Shown one piece after another: positions 26,103 through 52,951 of a stretch of DNA of 64,000 nucleotides; positions within the stretch are counted from its first letter, which is position 1; every line of letters begins with the position of its first letter. Made by a program: the position numbers and the translations under genes. The DNA comes from Mitsuaria sp. PDC51 (GTDB lineage Bacteria; Pseudomonadota; Gammaproteobacteria; Burkholderiales; Burkholderiaceae_C): positions 868,001-932,000 of the forward strand of contig NZ_FOZE01000001.1 of NCBI RefSeq assembly GCF_900113225.1, given 5' to 3'. The notes beneath the pieces were generated by a model that made no database searches, had not been told where the DNA came from, and worked only from the letters and a program-made list of their open reading frames with translations.

Positions 26103-26140
26103 ATTGTGAAGCGCCGCCCCCGCGCTCAACGCGCGAAAAG
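26103..26140 (-). promoter_or_regulatory. Class II-type flagellar promoter of fliL
   Basis: On the minus strand CTTTTCGC is followed after 24 bases by CACAAT and then GG, matching the element before flhB and flhA. Transcription would start near 26096, 62 bases before the fliL ATG. Confidence 0.5.
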
Positions 26141-26170
26141 GCGGCGGATTCCGGTCAGACTCGCGGACCG

Positions 26171-33268: not shown

Positions 33269-33426
33269 GGGGGTGTACGGCTGGGGTCGAACGATCGGCG
33301 GGGTGCGCCCAGGCGGACGCCTCGGCACAGGTCAGGATTATTTCGATCGGGGCCCTCAAGAATGTTGGGAACAGGCCGAAGAAGCCCCCCCAGTTCGGAG
33401 CTATGGCCGGCGGCGGCATCCGTACG

Positions 33427-37503: not shown

Positions 37504-38373
37504 TCAACCCTTGAGCAGCGACAGCACTTGCTGCGGCAGCTGGTTGGCCTGCGCGACCATCGCGTTACCGGCCTGCTGCAGGATCTGCGCCCGGCTCAGG
37601 TTGGAGGTCTCGACCGCGAAGTCGGCATCCATGATCCGGCTGCGGGCGGCGGTCTGGTTCTCGTAGGCCACCTGCAGGTTGGAGATCACCGCGTCGAAGC
37701 GGTTCTGCGTCGCGCCCAGCGTCGCGCGCTGGCTGTTGACGGTGTCCAGCGCCGTGTCGATGTTGGCCACCACCGTGGCGATCGCCGCCGCGTCCGCGGT
37801 GCGGTCGATCACCGCGCGGCCGGCGCCGCTGGTGTCCGAGCCGGAGACCTGGGTGATCGTGGTGTCGGCCGACATGTTGGGCGTCGTGACGGTGATCTCG
37901 TCGTTGGACGTGGTGTTCGGCCCGACCTGGAAGGTCTGCGGCAGCGACGCGTCCTGGCCCAGGATGTACTTGCCGTTGAAGGTGGTACCGGCGGTGACCC
38001 GCTGGATTTCCTTGGCCAGTTCGCCGAATTCCTTGTCCAGCGAATCCTTGTCGCTGTCCGCGTTGGTCGCGTTGCGGGCCTGGATCGCCAGTTCGCGCAT
38101 CCGCTGCAGCGAATCGGCCACCTTGCCCAGCGCGCCTTCAGCGGTCTGCGCCAGCGAGATGCCGTCGTTGGCATTGCGCATCGCGACCGACATGCCGCGG
38201 GCTTGCGCGTTCATCCGTTCGGCGATGGCCAGGCCGGCCGCGTCGTCCTTGGCGGAGTTCACCCGCAGGCCTGAGGACAGGCGCTGCATCGAGGTCGCCA
38301 GCGACGACTGCGACGAGTTCAGATTGCGTTGCGCGTTCAGCGAAGCAATGTTGGTGTTGATGGTCTGTGGCAT
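37504..38373 (-). CDS. fliC: Flagellin, divergent copy (FliC1)
   Basis: A 289-residue flagellin with only the D0/D1 core and a short central segment. The N-terminal half has [32 protein letters not shown] and TAEGALGKV, and the C-terminal half ends VAQANQLPQQVLSLLKG. It differs from the other two copies in the central part. An AGGAG lies 7 bases before the ATG. Unlike the other two, I found no FliA-type site upstream; instead there is the class II-type element at 38531-38569. It may be an early or minor flagellin. The variable outer domains are missing, so the filament should be thin. Confidence 0.96.
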   Translation of the reverse strand: MPQTINTNIASLNAQRNLNSSQSSLATSMQRLSSGLRVNSAKDDAAGLAIAERMNAQARGMSVAMRNANDGISLAQTAEGALGKVADSLQRMRELAIQARNATNADSDKDSLDKEFGELAKEIQRVTAGTTFNGKYILGQDASLPQTFQVGPNTTSNDEITVTTPNMSADTTITQVSGSDTSGAGRAVIDRTADAAAIATVVANIDTALDTVNSQRATLGATQNRFDAVISNLQVAYENQTAARSRIMDADFAVETSNLSRAQILQQAGNAMVAQANQLPQQVLSLLKG

Positions 38374-38530: not shown

Positions 38531-38569
38531 ATTGTGCGAAAGCTGCCACCCCGTCGATGGGCCGATTAA
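38531..38569 (-). promoter_or_regulatory. Class II-type promoter element upstream of fliC1
   Basis: On the minus strand TTAATCGG is followed after 25 bases by CACAAT and then GG, the same layout as before flhB and flhA with two mismatches in the upstream box. Transcription would start near 38524. Confidence 0.4.
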
Positions 38570-38600
38570 CGGGCGGAAAACCGTCCATTACGAAGCCAAT

Positions 38601-42105: not shown

Positions 42106-42429
42106 ATGAACAGCGACCAGATCCTTGCCGAGATCCGCGAAGCCAACCTGTCCTACCTGATGCTGGCCCAGAGCCTCATCCGCGCCGACCGCGAGCAGGC
42201 CCTGTACCGCCTGGGCATCTCCGAAGAGACCGCCACGCTGCTGAACACCCTCAGCCCGGCGCAGATGATGAAGATGGCCTCCGGCAACACGCTGCTGTGC
42301 CGCTTCCGCATGGACGACGACCTGGTGTGGGGCCTGCTGACCTCGCACGGCAAGCCGGCCGCCAACGACAGCGTCTCCCGCCTGCATGCCTCCATCCTGA
42401 TGGCCGGCCGCCACCAGGAAGCCGCCTGA
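42106..42429 (+). CDS. flhD: Flagellar master regulator FlhD, copy 1
   Basis: A 107-residue helical protein; with FlhC it forms the FlhD4C2 activator of early flagellar genes. Family features include EIREANLSYLMLAQSLIRAD and LGISEETATLLNTLSPAQM. It differs from the second copy at seven positions (for example Pro51 to Ala and Met54 to Leu). An AGGAG precedes the ATG. It lies 60 bases before its own flhC. The master genes of this window are therefore duplicated. Confidence 0.97.
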   Translation: MNSDQILAEIREANLSYLMLAQSLIRADREQALYRLGISEETATLLNTLSPAQMMKMASGNTLLCRFRMDDDLVWGLLTSHGKPAANDSVSRLHASILMAGRHQEAA

Positions 42430-42489
42430 TCCCAGGATCCAGGCAACGCGATTGCCGCCCGAGATTATCCGAGACCACCGGAGCCCCCC

Positions 42490-43026
42490 ATGCGCACCAA
42501 GTCCATCCTGACCGAAGCCAAGCAGATCGAACGCGCGGTGACGCTGATCAAGCTGGGCGCGCGCCTGCAGGTGCTGGAATCGGAAACCGACCTGAGCTAC
42601 GAGCGTTTGCTGCGCCTGTACAAGGAAGTCTCGGGCAAGTCACCCAGCAAGGGCCAGCTGCCGTTCTCCACCGACTGGTTCATGACCTGGCAGCCCAACA
42701 TCCATGCCAGCCTGTTCCTCAACATCCACGAGTACTTGAACAAGGTCGCGGAGATGGACGAAATCGACGTCGTCATCAAGGCCTACCAGCTGTACCAGGA
42801 GCAGACCGCGGCGCAGAACCTGGAGCAGCTGTTGTCCGTCACCCGCGCCTGGCGCCTGGTGAAGTTCGTCGACAACGGCATGCTGACGATGACCAAGTGC
42901 AGCAAGTGCGGCGGTCATTTCGTTACCCACCCCCACGAGGTCGCCAAGCATTACGTCTGCGGCCTGTGCAACCCGCCGGCGCGCGCCGGCAAGGGCAAGG
43001 CGGCTGGCGGCATCCAGATGCACTGA
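42490..43026 (+). CDS. flhC: Flagellar master regulator FlhC, copy 1
   Basis: A 178-residue DNA-binding subunit of FlhD4C2 with the C-terminal zinc site CSKCGG and CGLCN (four Cys). It differs from the second FlhC at one residue only (Lys21 here, His there). The last 375 bases are about 97% identical between copies with only silent changes, while the first 160 differ by about 11%. A glycosyltransferase gene follows by 10 bases, probably co-transcribed. Confidence 0.97.
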   Translation: MRTKSILTEAKQIERAVTLIKLGARLQVLESETDLSYERLLRLYKEVSGKSPSKGQLPFSTDWFMTWQPNIHASLFLNIHEYLNKVAEMDEIDVVIKAYQLYQEQTAAQNLEQLLSVTRAWRLVKFVDNGMLTMTKCSKCGGHFVTHPHEVAKHYVCGLCNPPARAGKGKAAGGIQMH

Positions 43027-43036
43027 GCGGCGCGGC

Positions 43037-44053
43037 ATGGCCTCGCGCTGGCGCACCTGCCTGGTCGTCATTGCCCGCGACGAGGCGGCGACCATCGGCC
43101 GCCTCCTCGACAGCGTCCGTCCGTTCGTGGACGACGCGCTGGTGCTGGACACCGGCTCCACCGATGACACCGTCCGTCTGGCGCAGGCCGCTGGCGCGCG
43201 TGTCGCGCACTTCACCTGGATCGACGATTTCTCCGCTGCCCGCAACGCGGCGCTCGACGCCGCGGGCGCGGACTGGCACCTGGTGCTGGACGCCGATGAA
43301 TGGCTGATCGGGGAGGGCAGTGGTGCGGCGCTCGAGGCGCTGCGCGCCACGCCGCCGGATTTCGTCGGCACGATCGCGTTGCAGGATCACTTCGACGGTG
43401 GCACTGCCCGTTCGCGCTTGAGCCGCGTTCTTCCGGGCGCGATCCGCTACACCGGCCGAATCCACGAGCAACCCGCGCATTCGCTGCCGATACGGCCGCT
43501 CGACCTTCACGTCGCCCACGACGGCTACCTCCCGGAACGGCTTCACGTGAAGCAGGGCCGCAACGAACAATTGCTCCGGGCCGCAATCGAGGACGAGCCG
43601 AGCAACCCCTATCTGTGGTACCAGCTCGGCAAGGACTTGTCCGTGTACGAGCGCTTCGCCGATGCCGAAGTCGCCTTCGCCACTGCAGCCGCTCGCCTTG
43701 CGGACATGTCCCTGACACCGACGTGGTGGTCCGACCTGGCGACCCGTCGCTTGTTCGGCTTGAAATCGCTGAAGCGTCATGCTGACGGCATGGTTTTCGC
43801 CGAAGCGCAACTGCAAGTCTGTGCAGAGTCGCCCGACTTCTTCTTCGCGCTGGGTGACCTGTTGCTGGACTGGGCGGCAGACCAACCGGAGCAGGCGGAG
43901 GTGTTGGTGCCGATGATCCACGACGCCTGGACGCGTTGCCTGGAGATCGGTGAGCGTCCGGATCAACCGGGTGCCGTCGCGGGCCGGGGCAGTGACCTTG
44001 CGGCCTACAACCTCGAGCTGCTGCGTTCCACCTTCCCCCGAAATCCTCGGTAG
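43037..44053 (+). CDS. Family 2 glycosyltransferase with C-terminal helical repeats
   Basis: A 338-residue enzyme with a GT-A fold: CLVVIARDEAATIGRLLDSV binds the nucleotide sugar and VLDADEW supplies the metal-binding DxD. The C-terminal half is helical and TPR-like (YLWYQLGKDLSVYERFADAE). It sits 10 bases after the first flhC and before the second flhD, so it is under flagellar master control by position. Flagellin glycosylation is a reasonable guess: it is common in such loci, and the core-only flagellins here lie nearby. The sugar and target are unknown. Confidence 0.88.
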   Translation: MASRWRTCLVVIARDEAATIGRLLDSVRPFVDDALVLDTGSTDDTVRLAQAAGARVAHFTWIDDFSAARNAALDAAGADWHLVLDADEWLIGEGSGAALEALRATPPDFVGTIALQDHFDGGTARSRLSRVLPGAIRYTGRIHEQPAHSLPIRPLDLHVAHDGYLPERLHVKQGRNEQLLRAAIEDEPSNPYLWYQLGKDLSVYERFADAEVAFATAAARLADMSLTPTWWSDLATRRLFGLKSLKRHADGMVFAEAQLQVCAESPDFFFALGDLLLDWAADQPEQAEVLVPMIHDAWTRCLEIGERPDQPGAVAGRGSDLAAYNLELLRSTFPRNPR

Positions 44054-44152
44054 CAAATCCTCCGCAGGACGGCAGTGGTTGGGGGCGGCAGGGCGCGGGG
44101 TCTTGGCGCTTGCCGCCAAGGCCCTGCGCCCTGGCGACCAACGCCCGGGTCT

Positions 44153-44240
44153 CCGCAGCACAGCGCCCCCGCCAACCCTCCCCACCGCAGCACAGCGCCC
44201 CCGCCAGTCCACCCCCACCGCAGCAGGGCATAAACCCCCG
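44153..44240. repeat. Short tandem repeat, about 2.7 copies of 32-33 bases
   Basis: Copies begin with CCGCAGCA at 44153, 44185 and 44218; the first two continue CAGCGCCCCCGCCA and then a C-rich end. Spacing is continuous, without spacers, so it is not a CRISPR. Confidence 0.8.
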
Positions 44241-44275
44241 AAAACCACCCCCGCCATAGCGCTGATCTGGCTTCT

Positions 44276-44294
44276 TGTAGGAATTGATCTGACA
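44276..44294 (+). promoter_or_regulatory. Dyad upstream of the second flhD
   Basis: TGTAGGA-N5-TCTGACA, identical in both arms to the site at 41974-41992, 129 bases before the ATG. ACCTGATGT again follows 57 bases from the dyad start. The bases between are mostly different, so the shared parts appear selected. Confidence 0.6.
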
Positions 44295-44422
44295 AACGCG
44301 TCGGCGCGCTCCCTAACCTTTACATGGAAGCGACCTGATGTTGGTTGCGTGTCGGGATCTCTACAGTTCGTCTCACGCTGAAACGAAACGACCTCAGCCC
44401 CCAACACCCCAGGAGCCGAACG

Positions 44423-44746
44423 ATGAACGCCGACCAAATCCTCGCCGAGATCCGCGAAGCCAACCTGTCGTACCTGATGCTGGCGCAGAGTTTGATCCGT
44501 GCGGACCGTGAGCAGGCGCTGTATCGTCTGGGCATCTCGGAGGAGACCGCGACGCTGCTGAACACGCTGAGCGCTGCGCAGATGCTGAAGATTGCCGCGG
44601 GCAACACCTTGCTGTGCCGCTTCCGCATGGATGATGAGCTGGTGTGGGGCCTGCTGACCTCGCACGGCAAGCCGGCCGCCAATGACAGCGTGTCCCGCCT
44701 GCATGCCTCCATCCTGCTGGCTGGCCGCCACCAGGAAGCTGCCTGA
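44423..44746 (+). CDS. flhD: Flagellar master regulator FlhD, copy 2
   Basis: A 107-residue FlhD with seven substitutions from copy 1, clustered around residues 51-57 (AAQMLKIAAG against PAQMMKMASG). The start at 44423 has an AGGAG upstream and aligns with copy 1. It is followed 48 bases later by the second flhC. Codon use is more relaxed at the 5' end than in copy 1. Confidence 0.97.
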   Translation: MNADQILAEIREANLSYLMLAQSLIRADREQALYRLGISEETATLLNTLSAAQMLKIAAGNTLLCRFRMDDELVWGLLTSHGKPAANDSVSRLHASILLAGRHQEAA

Positions 44747-44794
44747 GTTCGATATCGACGCCTGACCGCAGAACTGAAGCCCGGAGACACCGCC

Positions 44795-45331
44795 ATGCGC
44801 ACCAAGTCCATCTTGACCGAAGCCAAGCAGATCGAGCGCGCCGTGACGCTGATCCACCTGGGCGCTCGCCTGCAGGTGCTGGAGTCTGAGACGGACCTGA
44901 GCTACGAGCGTCTGCTGCGTTTGTACAAGGAAGTTTCGGGCAAGAGCCCCAGCAAGGGCCAGCTGCCGTTCTCCACCGACTGGTTCATGACCTGGCAGCC
45001 CAACATCCATGCCAGCCTGTTCCTCAACATCCACGAGTACTTGAACAAGGTCGCGGAGATGGACGAGATCGACGTCGTCATCAAGGCCTACCAGCTGTAC
45101 CAGGAACAGACCGCGGCACAGAACCTGGAGCAGCTGTTGTCCGTCACCCGCGCCTGGCGCCTGGTGAAGTTCGTCGACAACGGCATGCTGACGATGACCA
45201 AGTGCAGCAAGTGCGGCGGTCATTTCGTCACCCACCCGCATGAGGTCGCCAAGCACTACGTCTGCGGCCTGTGCAACCCGCCGGCGCGTGCCGGCAAGGG
45301 CAAGGCGGCCGGCGGCATCCAGATGCATTGA
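44795..45331 (+). CDS. flhC: Flagellar master regulator FlhC, copy 2
   Basis: A 178-residue FlhC identical to copy 1 except His for Lys at residue 21. The zinc-site cysteines are intact. Both copies therefore look functional. The near identity of the last two thirds of the gene suggests recent gene conversion between the copies. A methyltransferase gene starts 10 bases downstream, in the same slot that the glycosyltransferase takes behind copy 1. Confidence 0.97.
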   Translation: MRTKSILTEAKQIERAVTLIHLGARLQVLESETDLSYERLLRLYKEVSGKSPSKGQLPFSTDWFMTWQPNIHASLFLNIHEYLNKVAEMDEIDVVIKAYQLYQEQTAAQNLEQLLSVTRAWRLVKFVDNGMLTMTKCSKCGGHFVTHPHEVAKHYVCGLCNPPARAGKGKAAGGIQMH

Positions 45332-45341
45332 GGCCGCCACC

Positions 45342-46100
45342 ATGGGCGCCCGACTTCCCCACGCCGCTTCCACCGACGCCCCGGGCGGCCTGCGCTGGCC
45401 GGCCCTGGCGCTGCTGAGCTGGGCGGCCTGCTTCGCCGTCTGGCGCCTGTTCGGCCCGGACTGGCCGGCGGCGATCGTCGCCTCGGGCCTGGGCCTGATC
45501 CTCGCCGGACTCCACCGCCAGGCCTGGCGCCGGCTGATCGTGGCGTCCGGTTTTCCGCTGGCGCTGCTGTTCACGGGTACCGACCTGCCGGCCTGGATCT
45601 GGCTGATCCCGCTGGCCGTGCTGGTGCTGGCCTATCCGCGCCGCGGCTGGAGCGACGCGCCGCTTTATCCGACCCCCCACGATGCGCTGCGCGCGCTGCC
45701 CGAGCGTGTGAAGCTGCACGACGGCGCCCGCGTCCTGGATGCTGGCTGCGGGCTCGGCGACGGATTGGTGGCTCTTCGCCGCGCTTATCCGGGCCTGCGC
45801 TTCGCGGGCATTGAATACAGTGGCGTCCTGTGGCTGCTGGCCCGCCTGCGCTGCCCCTGGGCCGAGATCGCCCGGGGCGACCTGTGGGCCCAGTCGTGGC
45901 GCGAGATGGACCTGGTCTACCTGTTCCAGCGACCCGAATCGATGCCGCGCGCGCTTGACAAGGCGCGCACCGAGATGCGGCCGGGTGCCTGGCTGGCGAG
46001 CCTGGATTTTCCGCTGCCGGGCCAGCCGGTCTTCGCACAGCTGGACACCGGCACCCGCCACCGGCTGTATGTCTACCGGGTGCGCGAACTCCAGGCCTGA
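45342..46100 (+). CDS. Membrane-anchored class I SAM-dependent methyltransferase
   Basis: A 252-residue protein. The first 95 residues hold three to four hydrophobic segments (LALLSWAACFAVWRLF, AAIVASGLGLILAGL, LIPLAVLVLAYP). A Rossmann methyltransferase domain follows with the SAM motif VLDAGCGLGDG and the acidic IEYSG strand. It starts 10 bases after flhC copy 2, so it is probably co-expressed. Membrane-anchored methyltransferases of this type occur across Burkholderiales with unknown substrates; a role in motility or envelope modification is only inferred. Confidence 0.85.
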   Translation: MGARLPHAASTDAPGGLRWPALALLSWAACFAVWRLFGPDWPAAIVASGLGLILAGLHRQAWRRLIVASGFPLALLFTGTDLPAWIWLIPLAVLVLAYPRRGWSDAPLYPTPHDALRALPERVKLHDGARVLDAGCGLGDGLVALRRAYPGLRFAGIEYSGVLWLLARLRCPWAEIARGDLWAQSWREMDLVYLFQRPESMPRALDKARTEMRPGAWLASLDFPLPGQPVFAQLDTGTRHRLYVYRVRELQA

Positions 46101-47150: not shown

Positions 47151-48098
47151 ATGGCCGGTGACGCCAAGAAACTGCAGCCCATCATCATCAAGCGCGTCAA
47201 GAAGGGCGGCCATGCCGCCCACGGCGGCGCGTGGAAGATCGCCTACGCGGACTTCGTGACGGCGATGATGGCCTTCTTCCTGCTGATGTGGCTGCTGGGC
47301 TCCACGACCGAGGGCGACAAGAAGGGTATCGCGGATTATTTCGCCTCGCCGCTGAAGGTCGCGATGTTCGGCGGTTCGGGTTCGGGCGACGCTTCGCACA
47401 TCATCAAGGGCGGCGGTCAGGACCTGACGCGCCAGACCGGCCAGGTCAAGGCCGGCGACGTCGAATCCCCTCGGAAAACCATCAACCTGAAGGCCCTCAA
47501 GGAAGAGCAGCGCCGCGCCGAGCGGGTGCGCCTGCAGCAATTGAAGGACAAGGTCGAGAAAATCATTGCCGACAACCCGCGAATTGCGGCATTAGGTGGG
47601 CAAATCCGACTCGACATGACCCGCGAGGGCTTGCGTATCCAAATCGTGGACGAGAATAATCGCCCGATGTTTGACAGCGGCAGCGCGGTGGTGAAGCCGT
47701 ATATGCGCGAATTGCTGCAGGAACTCGGCAACGTGTTGTCCGAGGTGCCCAACCGGCTCACGCTGGAGGGTCATACGGATGCACAGCCGTTTTCTGCGGG
47801 CGAGCGTGGATACAGCAACTGGGAATTGTCGGCGGACCGGGCCAATGCCTCACGGCGCGAGCTGGTGGCGGGCGGTTTGCCGGATGCCCGGGTCCTTCGC
47901 GTGCAGGGGTTGGCGTCGAGCAAACTGCTGGACACGAAAGACCCCAATGCCCAGGTCAATCGCCGCATCAGCATCATCGTGATGAATCGCGATGCCGAGG
48001 ATGCGGTGCTGAAGAACCTGCCCGACGAGGACGAGGACACTGCGAATCCTGCGGCGAGCGCGCCGCAGGCCTCAAGTTCCGCGCCCTCCGGCCGATAA
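47151..48098 (+). CDS. motB: Flagellar stator protein MotB
   Basis: A 315-residue stator subunit. The N-terminal helix carries the proton-binding Asp in [19 protein letters not shown]; a plug and linker follow, then a C-terminal OmpA-like peptidoglycan-binding domain ([28 protein letters not shown]). It starts 15 bases after motA. Confidence 0.97.
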
Positions 48099-49174: not shown

Positions 49175-49208
49175 TCGCCTCGGCCGGCCGCGAGCCGGCA
49201 CCCCGACG

Positions 49209-49240
49209 AAACCCGCGCCCAGGCGCGGGTTTCTGCTTTC
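49209..49240 (+). terminator. Intrinsic terminator after cheZ
   Basis: AAACCCGCGC-CCAG-GCGCGGGTTT followed by CTGCTTTC, 35 bases after the cheZ stop. Confidence 0.8.
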
Positions 49241-49297
49241 TGGGCGACTGGAACGACGGGCTGAGGGCTGGCTGAGAAGACCGGCTGATTTCCGCCT

Positions 49298-49340
49298 CTT
49301 ATCGGACCAAGCCCGAACGGCTCGCGGCCGAACAATGGCG
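49298..49340 (+). promoter_or_regulatory. Class II-type flagellar promoter of flhB
   Basis: CTTATCGG-N25-AACAAT followed by GG. The downstream part GCCGAACAATGGCG is identical in the flhA leader at the same distance from CTTATCGG. AACAAT fits a -10; transcription would start near 49343, 36 bases before the ATG. Confidence 0.55.
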
Positions 49341-49378
49341 AGGCTGCGGCATGGGGCTGCGGCGTCCTCATTGCGCAC

Positions 49379-50575
49379 ATGGCCGATTCAGACGCACAAG
49401 ACCGCAACTTACCCGCCTCGCAGAAAAAGATCGAACGATCGCGCAAGGAGGGCCAGTTGCCGCGTTCCCGGGACCTGCCGCATTTCGCGGTCATGGCCAC
49501 CGGGGCCGCGTTGTTCGCCACCTCGACGCCGTACGCGGTCGACACGCTGCAGCACATGCTCGAAGGGGCGCTGCGTTTCGATGCCGAACAGCTGCGCGCC
49601 GCCGGCATGATGACCGAGCGGCTGTCCGCGCTGACCTGGCAGGGCATGGTGCTCGGCCTGCCGGCGATGCTCATCCTGGCGATGGCCGCGATCGCGGCGC
49701 ACATCGCCTCGGGCGGCTGGAACTTCACGATGAAGCCGCTGAGCCCCAAGTTCACCCACCTGAACCCGGTCACCGGCTTCGGCCGGCTGTTCCAGTGGCA
49801 GAACCTGACCACGGCGCTGAAGGCCGTTCTGCTGTCGCTGGTGCTGGGCATCGTCGGCGCGATCGCGCTGAAGGACCGCATCGCAGGCTTCGTCGGGATC
49901 ATGTCGGTGCCGCTGCCTTCCGCGCTCGCCTTCGCGGGCAAGCAACTAATGGGCGGCCTGATGATGCTTGGCCTGTGCCTGGCGCTGTTCGCCGTCATCG
50001 ACGTGCCGCTGCAGCGCCACCTCTACCTGAAGCGGCTGAAGATGTCCCGCGAGGAGGCCAAGAACGAGCTCAAGGAAGCCGAAGGCAACCTCGAGATGAA
50101 GCACAAGATGCGCCACAAGGCCCGCGAGCTGGTGAAGCGTCGCATGCTGGCGGCGGTGCCCAAGGCGGACCTGGTCGTGATGAACCCGACCCACTATGCG
50201 GTCGCGATCGCCTACGACGAAACCCAGTTCGGCGCGCCGCGGGTGGTGGCCAAGGGCCTGGACCTGCTGGCCTTCAAGATCCGCGACATCGCCAAGGAAA
50301 GCAAGGTGCCGGTGCTGCAGGCGCCGGCCCTGGCCCGTGCCCTGTACGCCCACGCCGAGCTGGATCGGGAGATCCCCGGCGCGCTGTTCGGCGCGGTGGC
50401 GCAGGTGCTGGCCTACGTGTACCAGCTCAAGGCCGCGCTCAAGGGGCAGGGCATGGCGCCGAACGCGGCGCCGAACCCGGCCGTGCCGGACGAGCTCGAC
50501 CCGCACAAGAAGCCGGGTTGGACGCCGCCGGAGGACGAGGCGGAGGACGCTTTCCCTGAAGGGCGTCCGGGCTGA
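49379..50575 (+). CDS. flhB: Flagellar export protein FlhB
   Basis: A 398-residue export-gate protein with four membrane helices and a cytoplasmic domain that cleaves itself at NPTH (VVMNPTHYAVAIAYDE, about residue 268), which sets substrate specificity with FliK. The N-terminus has the usual RKEGQLPRSRDL. It stands alone with its own promoter element; a repeat-rich gap separates it from flhA. Confidence 0.97.
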   Translation: MADSDAQDRNLPASQKKIERSRKEGQLPRSRDLPHFAVMATGAALFATSTPYAVDTLQHMLEGALRFDAEQLRAAGMMTERLSALTWQGMVLGLPAMLILAMAAIAAHIASGGWNFTMKPLSPKFTHLNPVTGFGRLFQWQNLTTALKAVLLSLVLGIVGAIALKDRIAGFVGIMSVPLPSALAFAGKQLMGGLMMLGLCLALFAVIDVPLQRHLYLKRLKMSREEAKNELKEAEGNLEMKHKMRHKARELVKRRMLAAVPKADLVVMNPTHYAVAIAYDETQFGAPRVVAKGLDLLAFKIRDIAKESKVPVLQAPALARALYAHAELDREIPGALFGAVAQVLAYVYQLKAALKGQGMAPNAAPNPAVPDELDPHKKPGWTPPEDEAEDAFPEGRPG

Positions 50576-50587
50576 TCGCCCAGCGGA

Positions 50588-50633
50588 AGACCGAGCCGTC
50601 GAAAGACCGAGCCGCGGGAGACCGAGCCAGCGG
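50588..50633. repeat. Triple direct repeat AGACCGAGCC
   Basis: AGACCGAGCC occurs at 50588, 50604 and 50619, spaced 16 and 15 bases, between flhB and the large inverted repeat. Confidence 0.85.
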
Positions 50634-50717
50634 CGGGCAGGACGGTGCCCCCTTTCCGCTCAGACGCCTGCGCCCGCTCGGCATTCGCTTCAAGGGGGCA
50701 CCGTCCCGCCCGCCGCT
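50629..50717. repeat. Large inverted repeat between flhB and flhA
   Basis: Arms of 26 bases (50629-50654 and 50692-50717) pair with one mismatch around a 37-base loop. The inner arm is GGACGGTGCCCCCTT. There is no T tract after it. It could be a REP-like element, a processing site or a barrier separating flhB from flhA. Confidence 0.8.
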
Positions 50718-50754
50718 CTCCACCAATGGCGCGGTTCGGGGGGGAAAAGGCCCG

Positions 50755-50800
50755 CTTATCGGGCTAAAGGACGGTGGGGCTCCGCCGAACAATGGCGGGG
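50755..50800 (+). promoter_or_regulatory. Class II-type flagellar promoter of flhA
   Basis: CTTATCGG-N25-AACAAT followed by GG, matching the flhB element in both boxes and spacing. Transcription would start near 50800, about 50 bases before the flhA ATG. GCCCG-CTTAT-CGGGC also forms a small dyad over the upstream box. Confidence 0.55.
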
Positions 50801-50851
50801 CTCGATGGTCTCGTCGAGTTCCCCGTTGAACCCAGGCAGAAGGCAAACCCG

Positions 50852-52951
50852 ATGAACGAGCTCATGGCCCGTTTGCAGAACCTCCTCGGACCCCGCGCCG
50901 CCATCGTGCAGGCGCTCGGGGCACCGATCGCCATCATCATCATCCTGTCGATGATGGTGCTGCCGCTGCCCGCCTTCGCCCTGGACCTGTTCTTCACCTT
51001 CAACATCGCCATGTCCATCATGGTGATGCTGGTGGCCTCGCAGATGGTCAAGCCGCTGGACTTCGCGGCCTTCCCGACCGTGCTGCTGATCACCACGCTG
51101 CTGCGCCTGTCGCTGAACGTGGCCTCCACCCGCGTGGTGCTGCTGGAAGGCCACACCGGCGCCGGCGCCGCCGGCAAGGTGATCGAATCCTTCGGCCACT
51201 TCCTGATCGGCGGCAACTTCGCCGTCGGCCTGATCGTGTTCGCGATCCTGGTGGTCATCAACTTCATCGTGGTGACCAAGGGCGCCGAGCGCATCGCCGA
51301 GGTCGGCGCCCGCTTCACCCTCGACGCGATGCCCGGCAAGCAGATGGCCATCGACGCCGACCTGTCCGCCGGCCTGATCGACGAGAAGGAAGCCAAGCGC
51401 CGCCGCGCCGAACTGGGCGACGAAGCCGACTTCTTCGGCTCCATGGACGGTGCCTCGAAGTTCGTCCGCGGCGACGCGATCGCCGGCATCCTGATCCTGT
51501 TCATCAACATCATCGGCGGCTTCGTGATCGGCGTGGCCCAGCACGGGCTGTCCGCCGGCCAGGCCGCCGACAGCTACATCCTGCTGGCCGTCGGCGACGC
51601 GCTGGTGGCCCAGATCCCGGCGCTGCTGATCTCGGTGTCCTCGGCGCTGGTGGTGTCGCGCGTGGGCAAGGACAAGGACGTGGGCCAGATGATCGGCTCG
51701 CAGGTGTTCGGCTCGACCAAGGCGGTCGCCATCACCGCCGGCGTGATCGGCCTGCTGGGCCTGATCCCGGGCATGCCGCACCTGGTCTTCCTGATGATCG
51801 CCGGCGCGATGGGTTATCTGGCGTACTGGCTGCGAACCAAGGAGCAGACCAAGCAGGCCGCCGAGCTGAAGAAGCCGGCCGCCCCGGTGCCGGGCGCGCC
51901 GAACCCCGATGCCGAGGCCTCCTGGGACGACGTGCAGGCCGTGGACACCCTGGGCCTGGAAGTGGGTTACCGCCTGATCACGCTGGTGGACAAGTCGCGC
52001 GAAGGCGACCTGCTGAGCCGCATCAAGGGCGTGCGCCGCAAGTTCGCGCAGGACATCGGCTTCCTGCCGCCCTCGGTGCACATCCGGGACAACCTGGAGC
52101 TGCGCCCCAGCCAGTACCGAGTGACGCTGCGCGGCGCGGTGATCGGCGAGGCGGAGGCCTACCCGGGCATGTGGCTGGCGATCAACCCCGGTCACGCGAC
52201 GCAGAAGCTGATCGGGACGCCGACGACGGATCCCGCCTTCGGACTCCCGGCGGTCTGGATCGAGGAGCGGCAACGGGATATGGCGCAAATGGCGGGATTT
52301 ACCGTCGTTGATTGCGCGACCGTGGTGGCCACGCATCTCTCACACTTGCTGCAAGTTCACGCGGCCCGATTGTTGGGCCGGGTGGAAACCCAGCAGCTGG
52401 TGGATCACCTCACCAAGCAAGCGCCTCAGCTCATCGAAGACGTGATTCCAAAGATGGTCAATGTCGCCGCCCTGCAACGAGTCCTCCAGTTCCTGCTGGA
52501 AGAGGGCGTGCACATCCGCGACATGCGCTCCATCGTGGAAAGCCTGGCGGAGAACGCCACGCAGACCACCGATCCGGCCGAGCTGGCCCGTCGCATCCGC
52601 ATCCACATCGCCCCGGCGATCGTGCAGCAGATCTACGGTCCGGCCAAGGAACTGGATGTCATCGCCCTCGATCCGGAGCTGGAGCGCCTGGTCACGCAGG
52701 CCCTGCACTCGCCTCACGGCGCGGCGCTGGATCCCGGTGTGGCTGACACGCTTGCGCGGAGTGCCGCCCAGACCGCCCAGTCCCAGGAGGACCGTGGTTT
52801 GCCCGCCTGCCTGCTGGTGCCTGACCTGATCCGCGCGCCCCTGGCCCGACTGCTCAAGCGCGCTGCGCCGCGGCTGAAGGTCCTGGGACACAGCGAGATT
52901 CCTGAAACGCACACGATCCGCATCGGCTCCATCATCGGAGGCACGGCATGA
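50852..52951 (+). CDS. flhA: Flagellar export protein FlhA
   Basis: A 699-residue export-gate protein with eight membrane helices (about residues 20-320), the FHIPEP region (DFAAFPTVLLITTLLRLSLN, VVTKGAERIAEVGARFTLD, PGKQMAIDADL) and a C-terminal cytoplasmic ring domain. The ATG at 50852 was chosen because it has AGAAGG upstream and begins the conserved start; the frame is open 26 codons further. The stop overlaps flhF (ATGA). Confidence 0.96.
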   Translation: MNELMARLQNLLGPRAAIVQALGAPIAIIIILSMMVLPLPAFALDLFFTFNIAMSIMVMLVASQMVKPLDFAAFPTVLLITTLLRLSLNVASTRVVLLEGHTGAGAAGKVIESFGHFLIGGNFAVGLIVFAILVVINFIVVTKGAERIAEVGARFTLDAMPGKQMAIDADLSAGLIDEKEAKRRRAELGDEADFFGSMDGASKFVRGDAIAGILILFINIIGGFVIGVAQHGLSAGQAADSYILLAVGDALVAQIPALLISVSSALVVSRVGKDKDVGQMIGSQVFGSTKAVAITAGVIGLLGLIPGMPHLVFLMIAGAMGYLAYWLRTKEQTKQAAELKKPAAPVPGAPNPDAEASWDDVQAVDTLGLEVGYRLITLVDKSREGDLLSRIKGVRRKFAQDIGFLPPSVHIRDNLELRPSQYRVTLRGAVIGEAEAYPGMWLAINPGHATQKLIGTPTTDPAFGLPAVWIEERQRDMAQMAGFTVVDCATVVATHLSHLLQVHAARLLGRVETQQLVDHLTKQAPQLIEDVIPKMVNVAALQRVLQFLLEEGVHIRDMRSIVESLAENATQTTDPAELARRIRIHIAPAIVQQIYGPAKELDVIALDPELERLVTQALHSPHGAALDPGVADTLARSAAQTAQSQEDRGLPACLLVPDLIRAPLARLLKRAAPRLKVLGHSEIPETHTIRIGSIIGGTA

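Follow-up and report, generated by a model that had tools for sequence, protein, structure and literature searches.

The leaders of flhB and flhA in this flagellar cluster carry the same two words, CTTATCGG and then AACAATGG, which raises the question of what kind of promoter they belong to and which other genes it serves. The window analysed here is the whole stretch of 64,000 nucleotides, and positions refer to it unless stated otherwise. FlhDC class II promoters are textbook flagellar regulation, and a first-pass annotation had proposed that AACAAT is a -10, that CTTATCGG near -45 is an activator box and that the two may form the FlhDC-dependent class II promoter of this lineage. The core of that proposal was supported by the sequence evidence, while two of its statements failed. 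With a probability of about nine in ten, the element would be the FlhDC-dependent sigma-70 class II flagellar promoter of the lineage. Promoter architecture, conservation, the genes it precedes, a partial co-occurrence with flhC and agreement with E. coli class II promoters support the reading, and we infer FlhDC binding, sigma-70 use, the start sites and dependence on flhDC.

Both leaders were found to carry CTTATCGG-N25-AACAATGG exactly, at the identical spacing that had been claimed (49298-49338 and 50755-50795, both forward strand). The exact pattern did not occur in 100 dinucleotide shuffles of the window and was present exactly twice in the whole 5.85-Mb genome, as the flhB and flhA copies; the reversed CTTATCGG/AACAATGG pattern had no match in that genome. 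The bases between the words were said to differ, and they do for the most part, but they are alike near the -35 position (ACCAAG / GCTAAAG) and share CCG before the -10. The features of the two leaders were as follows.

49277..49310, forward strand: FlhDC-type box of the flhB promoter (A1 to T34; CTTATC at 49298-49303); 38.8 bits by position weight matrix in the window, own site in training
49331..49336, forward strand: predicted -10 AACAAT of the flhB promoter; across 48 sites A-C-A-A-T is kept almost without exception
49379..50575, forward strand: flhB; Pfam PF01312, E 1.2e-108
50734..50767, forward strand: FlhDC-type box of the flhA promoter (CTTATC at 50755-50760); 41.8 bits by the matrix, own site in training
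50788..50793, forward strand: predicted -10 AACAAT of the flhA promoter; register as at flhB
50801..50818, forward strand: putative hairpin CTCGA-N8-TCGAG in the flhA leader; seen on inspection of the sequence
50852..52951, forward strand: flhA (start 50852 assumed); NCBIfam FlhA, E 3.2e-257

Several further properties of this region were recorded. The A1 and A4 positions of the flhA box are not A, and the opposite strand over this box (50738, reverse strand) scored 18.3 bits, perhaps from partial symmetry of the FlhDC site. Between flhB and flhA lies a palindrome, GGTGCCCCCTT...AAGGGGGCACC (50644-50702), which is single-copy in the genome when searched by its 3' arm with at most 2 mismatches and is present in some relatives. 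All six Rfam matches near flhB and flhA were under the gathering score. A coding role for the ATG inside AACAATGG was rejected because its frame with respect to flhB varies (44 nt in the window but 36 and 34 nt in two of the relatives), and the two exact 8-mers proved too strict as a family-wide pattern, with matches in 6 of 299 genomes.

Across 30 flhB loci, the window's included, and flgB loci, CTTATCGG and AACAATGG were revealed as parts of one larger element, consisting in order of GAA(A/C)A-like bases, about 18 bp, CTTATC, 3 bases, the hexamer CTNANG, 17-18 bp and [ACG]ACAAT. This corresponds to a 34-bp box and then a -35-like hexamer, at a distance of 17-18 bp from the [ACG]ACAAT -10. 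Thus CTTATCGG does lie in the putative activator box, but it is the promoter-proximal part and not the whole of it. The predicted placement of AACAAT as the -10 and of CTTATCGG near -45 was supported by this register and by conservation across the family.

The element was described by a matrix of 48 sites (effective number 23.4), with columns counted from the C of CTTATC; the flhB sites of L027 and L035, the flhA site of L016 (visible there), the flgB loci of second gene sets and those of more distant genera were left out of training. Columns -21 (A 0.73), -18 (A 0.68), +1 (T 0.97), +3 (A/T 0.97) and +4 (T 0.97) held 1.25-2.35 bits, and column +11 (A/T 0.82) held 0.89 bits, below its neighbouring columns. 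The E. coli FlhDC consensus is ANNAN18TNWTN6WT, as quoted in PMC12888815. When CTTATC was placed at T23-T26, the conserved columns coincided with A1, A4, T23, W25, T26 and W33 of this consensus, so that the matrix as a whole fits it. The sole departure was T34 (T 0.33, A 0.64), which is A in the window's genus and T in relatives with CTTTAG. The ANNA pair reached a weighted fraction of 0.57 at the predicted offset and at most 0.20 at 19 other offsets tested. Columns outside the consensus, such as +2, +9, +10, +13 and +14, were likewise conserved. The earlier statement that the element does not look like the enteric FlhDC box was therefore wrong, as A1, A4, T23, W25 and T26 are conserved, W33 is A/T at 0.82 and only T34 departs. 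Additionally, a sigma-70-type -10 stands at a fixed distance from the box, with 17-18 nt from the -35-like hexamer to the -10, as in E. coli.

The flhB and flhA sites might instead be sigma-28 (FliA) class III promoters, or dual FlhDC/FliA promoters. The sigma-28 -10 consensus is GCCGATAA, with the core GCCGATA. The stretch CTAAAG-N14-GCCGAACAA resembles the sigma-28 form CTCAAG-N14-GCCGATAA, at flhA in the window's genus a -35-like TAAAG and GCCGA stand at sigma-28 spacing, and sigma-28-like sites occur in the cluster, for example at 48072 just before cheY; E. coli fliL, too, can be FliA-driven (PMC4183435). What distinguishes the sites from sigma-28 class III promoters, with which flhA shares a TAAAG-like -35 at similar spacing, is the -10. 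At flhB and flhA it is not GCCGATAA: a sigma-28 matrix gave GCCGAACA 1.7 bits compared with 15.7 for GCCGATAA, the matrix being built of 20 rows (18 distinct sites), which were taken in the window and its relatives by means of the core GCCGATA and are hence biased toward it. Moreover, GCCGA is not kept in other genera, where AATAAT, CATAAT, GATAAT, GACAAT or CACAAT stands in its place. A sigma-28 origin is accordingly rated improbable, and the FlhDC class II reading is preferred.

The whole genome and the window were scanned for further sites, and the following were obtained besides those of flhB and flhA.

26128..26161, reverse strand: FlhDC-type box before fliL (site 26140; -10 CACAAT at 26103-26108); 19.1 bits in the window, outside that training set
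33362..33395, reverse strand: FlhDC-type box before fliF (site 33374; -10 AATAAT at 33337-33342); 10.4 bits, outside that training set
38557..38590, reverse strand: FlhDC-type box before the third flagellin (site 38569; -10 CACAAT at 38531-38536); 28.0 bits, outside that training set
37504..38373, reverse strand: flagellin gene with the class II-type promoter; Pfam Flagellin_N/C
G000:C6:1293057-1293356: uncharacterised gene of about 100 amino acids (L079), with an FlhDC-type box upstream

A narrower model, R1, for which 150 of 4,781 first-look candidates were scored in the genome, found flgB, flhB, flhA and the ~100-aa gene; it was over-fitted to flhB/flhA/flgB, missed fliL, fliF and the flagellin, and was replaced by R2. 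The latter was trained on 40 sites, including the genome's own flhB, flhA, fliL, fliF, flagellin and flgB but not the ~100-aa gene. In the 5.85-Mb genome R2 found at least seven sites with E < 1e-3, namely flgB (outside the window), fliL, fliF, the third flagellin, flhB, flhA and the ~100-aa gene, a lower bound as 150 of 2,319 first-look candidates were scored. The fliL site ranked second in the genome by R2, which was trained on it. Six of the seven sites were at flagellar genes and one was at the uncharacterised gene, so that the box precedes early flagellar operons and is rare elsewhere. Directly after the seventh, the matches dropped from E < 1e-3 to E 0.07, at the level of noise. Five of 13 sub-threshold R2 matches were inspected; one lay inside the window's open reading frame at 45340-46100, and three of the other four look coding by eye.

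Sites at flg and fli genes and few elsewhere had been anticipated and were obtained; none of the seven stands before a che gene. Within the window, the fliL (19.1 bits) and flagellin (28.0 bits) sites that had been pointed out exceeded the best of 10 Markov controls (10.0 bits). The site claimed before the che operon, taken here as the highest-scoring box pair ahead of the che genes (13890, reverse strand), reached -13.7 bits, and none of the 25 best matrix matches in the window preceded che genes. The fliF site had been missed, as had the flgB site outside the window; the fliF site is weak within the window alone, where a site inside flhA (52308) scored 10.6 bits.

Ten relatives were scanned over 32 kb each (20 stretches, 320 kb) at a threshold of 14 bits. 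A total of 43 matches was obtained, compared with a mean of 0.3 and a maximum of 2 for 30 column-permuted matrices. These comprised 10 flhB training loci, 27 sites before expected genes (10 flagellin, 9 fliF and 8 fliL) and 6 elsewhere. The fliF site was present in all 10 relatives (12.7-16.9 bits) and the fliL site in 8 of 9, the stretch of one further relative having ended short of fliL. The six others are not explained as class II promoters of expected genes. G013 has two of them, one lying opposite the flhB box; of the remaining four, the first overlaps a fliL site, the second precedes fliE, the third is 267 nt ahead of fliP in a single relative and the fourth is 28 nt ahead of fliS. An own flhA copy of the element was carried by 9 of 16 loci of the genus; the contig of L009 ends first, and elsewhere flhA closely follows flhB. 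Second flagellar gene sets also occur in the genus (L045, L048, L050, L055, L056 and L058); their flgB lacks the element by simple box match, only 5-7 of the 11 letters of the box pair being matched in the 250 nt upstream at these six loci.

One of the three flagellins of the window has a class II-type promoter. In all 10 relatives a box stands before a flagellin, which best matches the third flagellin in nine and the second in G013. The leader of the third flagellin is about 155 nt long, and in the 10 relatives 99-174 nt separate the -10 from the start of the match. Far upstream of the first flagellin lies a sigma-28-like site (41039, reverse strand), and the second is preceded by TCAAG-N-CCCGATAA. 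Since the class II-type promoter is at the third flagellin and sigma-28-like sequences are at the first and second, the third flagellin may be made early.

The ~100-aa gene is a new candidate target of the FlhDC-type promoter. Homologues were found in 20 of 60 relatives, including all 16 genomes of the genus, and 30 named loci (L204-L233) are labelled Roseateles, Mitsuaria, Paucibacter, Pelomonas, or metagenome-assembled or unclassified Burkholderiales. A box was detected upstream at 30 of 30 of these loci (9.9-37.5 bits, each p <= 0.01 in 200 shuffles), even though none of the training sets contained the gene; its 30 loci are related by descent. Members of the family are about 100-140 aa long, and the 27 that were aligned share an invariant LQ-TRM-YDR-YA core. 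The protein matched no Pfam or NCBIfam family, its AlphaFold2 model (mean pLDDT 71.9) had no Foldseek match at E <= 0.001, and its best PDB sequence match had an E of only 0.84.

The proposed activator is encoded twice in the window.

42106..43026, forward strand: flhD and flhC, first copy (proposed activator); Pfam PF05247, E 5.3e-41, and PF05280, E 5e-86
44423..45331, forward strand: flhD and flhC, second copy; Pfam PF05247, E 9.1e-40, and PF05280, E 6.5e-86

The two copies (42106-45331) flank a family-2 glycosyltransferase gene. Of the 16 genus genomes, 12 hold two full-length flhC copies, as do two other genera (G007, G013), and some of these pairs score identically; in the remaining four genus genomes flhC was partial at contig ends or not found.

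In the family, 80 of 93 flhB places were included in the examination, with start codons that were chosen automatically, here and in the leader comparisons below, and are in some cases probably wrong. Scores of at least 20 bits were reached at 72 of the 80 loci and at 58 of the 64 outside the training set, the other six of the 64 falling below 20 bits. Such conservation refutes the notion that the two leaders agree by chance or through a repeated mobile sequence. That there are only two exact copies in the genome would agree with this notion, but the element is kept before flhB at those 72 loci (14 of them in the training set), the spacer bases differ between the flhB and flhA sites, and six of the seven best genome sites (150 of 2,319 candidates scored) precede flagellar genes; it is left with next to no probability.

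In other families of the order, 18 genomes with flhB were considered, and their -10 position reads GATAAT, AATAAT or CATAAT. A site unmatched in 100 shuffles was present before flhB in 6 of 9 genomes with full flhC, and a significant flhB site was present in 1 of 9 (G334) without flhC or with a divergent flhC. The flhC-bearing genomes without significance were G313 (3/100 shuffles), G319 (14/100) and G325 (31/100), of which G319 and G325 are in register. The assembly of G334 yielded a strong site but neither flhD nor flhC, which would suit an activator other than FlhDC that binds the box, with the presence of FlhDC incidental. However, the contig of G334 stops within motA, and in the gene order of the window flhDC lies past that gene, so this exception may be an assembly gap; G127, a genus member in which flhDC was not found, may likewise be explained by a contig end at the same place. 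As the box also matches the FlhDC consensus in register and its architecture is common to E. coli class II promoters, a different activator is considered very improbable, even more so than sigma-28.

According to the preferred FlhDC class II reading, the two flhDC copies, which lie 4-7 kb upstream of flhB, would supply the FlhD4C2. This complex would bind the box from about -66 to -33, with CTTATCGG/TAAAG as its promoter-proximal part, and would recruit sigma-70 RNA polymerase to the [ACG]ACAAT -10, which itself lacks a good -35. The reading would fix the class II promoter of Roseateles/Comamonadaceae-type flagellar systems to the base, and the register of the E. coli FlhDC box would be kept in betaproteobacteria. 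It also provides a short and testable candidate FlhDC regulon of at least seven promoters, to which an uncharacterised conserved gene and a flagellin are added.

A further feature was found between the predicted -10 and the flhB start.

49344..49362, forward strand: hairpin in the flhB leader, 7-bp stem of 49344-49350 with 49356-49362; genus alignment, 14 of 16 loci

The genus alignment, which omits L011 and L023, had 93.9% of cells paired in the stem, a value reached by 1 of 500 shuffles; the covariation score was also reached by 1 of 500, and the three pairs changed on both sides were reached by 78 of 500. The covarying inverted repeat was also seen more widely (window 49337-49378; leaders L008-L037 and L140-L203). 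After dropping leaders shorter than 15 nt, 69 of 72 family leaders were kept, of which 33 had a stem with p <= 0.05 (28 with p <= 0.01) that starts no more than 4 nt from the -10. In 25 of those 33 the stem starts at the first base after the -10, and about half of the family leaders had no significant stem. A Shine-Dalgarno-like motif, with four motifs tried, was found in 1 of the 69 leaders and in none of the other 68. When the first 7 bases were swapped between loci, the start region became cheaper to open, the mean added cost falling from 3.72 to 1.40 kcal (62 of 72 leaders, those shorter than 18 nt, not re-found or too near the end of the stretch being dropped). Swap permutations had a standard deviation of 0.21 and a highest value of 2.05 kcal in 200, compared with 3.72 for the native leaders, although this is not an exact test because the leaders are related by descent.

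One tentative and rather doubtful explanation is that the class II flhB promoter carries a translational gate in much of the family, as in phage T4 lysozyme and Bacillus sigG; a literature search on the Bacillus sigG gate gave no match. In such leaders the ~7 bases that follow the -10, most of which precede the expected start site, are complementary to those just before an flhB start codon without a Shine-Dalgarno sequence. The hairpin would form, and block translation, only in RNA that reads through from che/mot genes upstream, and FlhDC-started RNA, without the 5' arm, would be translated. If true, the master regulator would control FlhB synthesis at two levels. In the window's genus the stem lies ~7 nt further downstream, and therefore a 5'-end hairpin of the FlhDC transcript is suggested instead; the gate is also weakened there because a terminator-like repeat, read by eye, lies between cheZ and flhB (~49208-49241). 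In E. coli, che to flhB read-through was seen only at extreme FliA levels (PMC4183435). The repeat may act as a read-through gate, as a 5'-end hairpin or as both, and its conservation at the flhB start raises the possibility of read-through control of the export switch protein.

In comparison with known systems, the E. coli class II promoters (fliL, fliA, fliF, flhB, flgA and flgB) have the same register of a CTTATC-like word, N3, a hexamer, N17-18 and a -10, share the key consensus positions and have flgB, flhB, fliF and fliL among the targets. In E. coli K-12 the register reads CTTTTC-CCC-GCTTTG-N17-GATAAT at fliL, CTAATC-GTC-CGATTA-N17-GATAAT at fliA and TTTATT-GGC-GGATAG-N17-AATAAT at fliF. 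The betaproteobacterial matrix had its best match in each of three E. coli stretches at flhB, flgA and fliL, with fliA the next match in the fliL stretch after an overlapping fliL match, and fliF and flgB ranking eighth and tenth within their stretches. These matches are rank evidence and not proof, because only fliL (21.3 bits) was above all 10 Markov controls of its stretch. FlhDC binding in E. coli has been mapped at 11 sites (PMC4183435). Differently from E. coli, the -10 here has the form [ACG]ACAAT and is not GATAAT-like, the window's genus carries A at T34, flhA has its own copy of the element in 9 of 16 genus loci, and no separate site before fliA was among the matches, fliA lying within the flhA-flhF-flhG cluster.

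Acidovorax delafieldii belongs to the Comamonadaceae, within the betaproteobacteria. For its strain LR140, a computational FlhDC box was described in 2026, and the claim that no description of this form was known does not hold in view of that report (PMC12888815). The E. coli-derived consensus was used there as well, and the computed box precedes flgB, flhB, fliF and fliL; its list adds flgA, fliA, fliE, an OmpR-family regulator and a hypothetical protein, whereas here a flagellin and the conserved ~100-aa gene are among the seven sites (PMC12888815). Our literature search found no paper joining FlhDC with Roseateles, with Comamonadaceae flagella or with a betaproteobacterial flhB promoter. 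What is new here is the candidate ~100-aa target, the predicted class II-type flagellin promoter and the covarying inverted repeat between the putative -10 and the flhB start. The kind of promoter is already known, and the present locus is another example of it, with a clearer register and target list.
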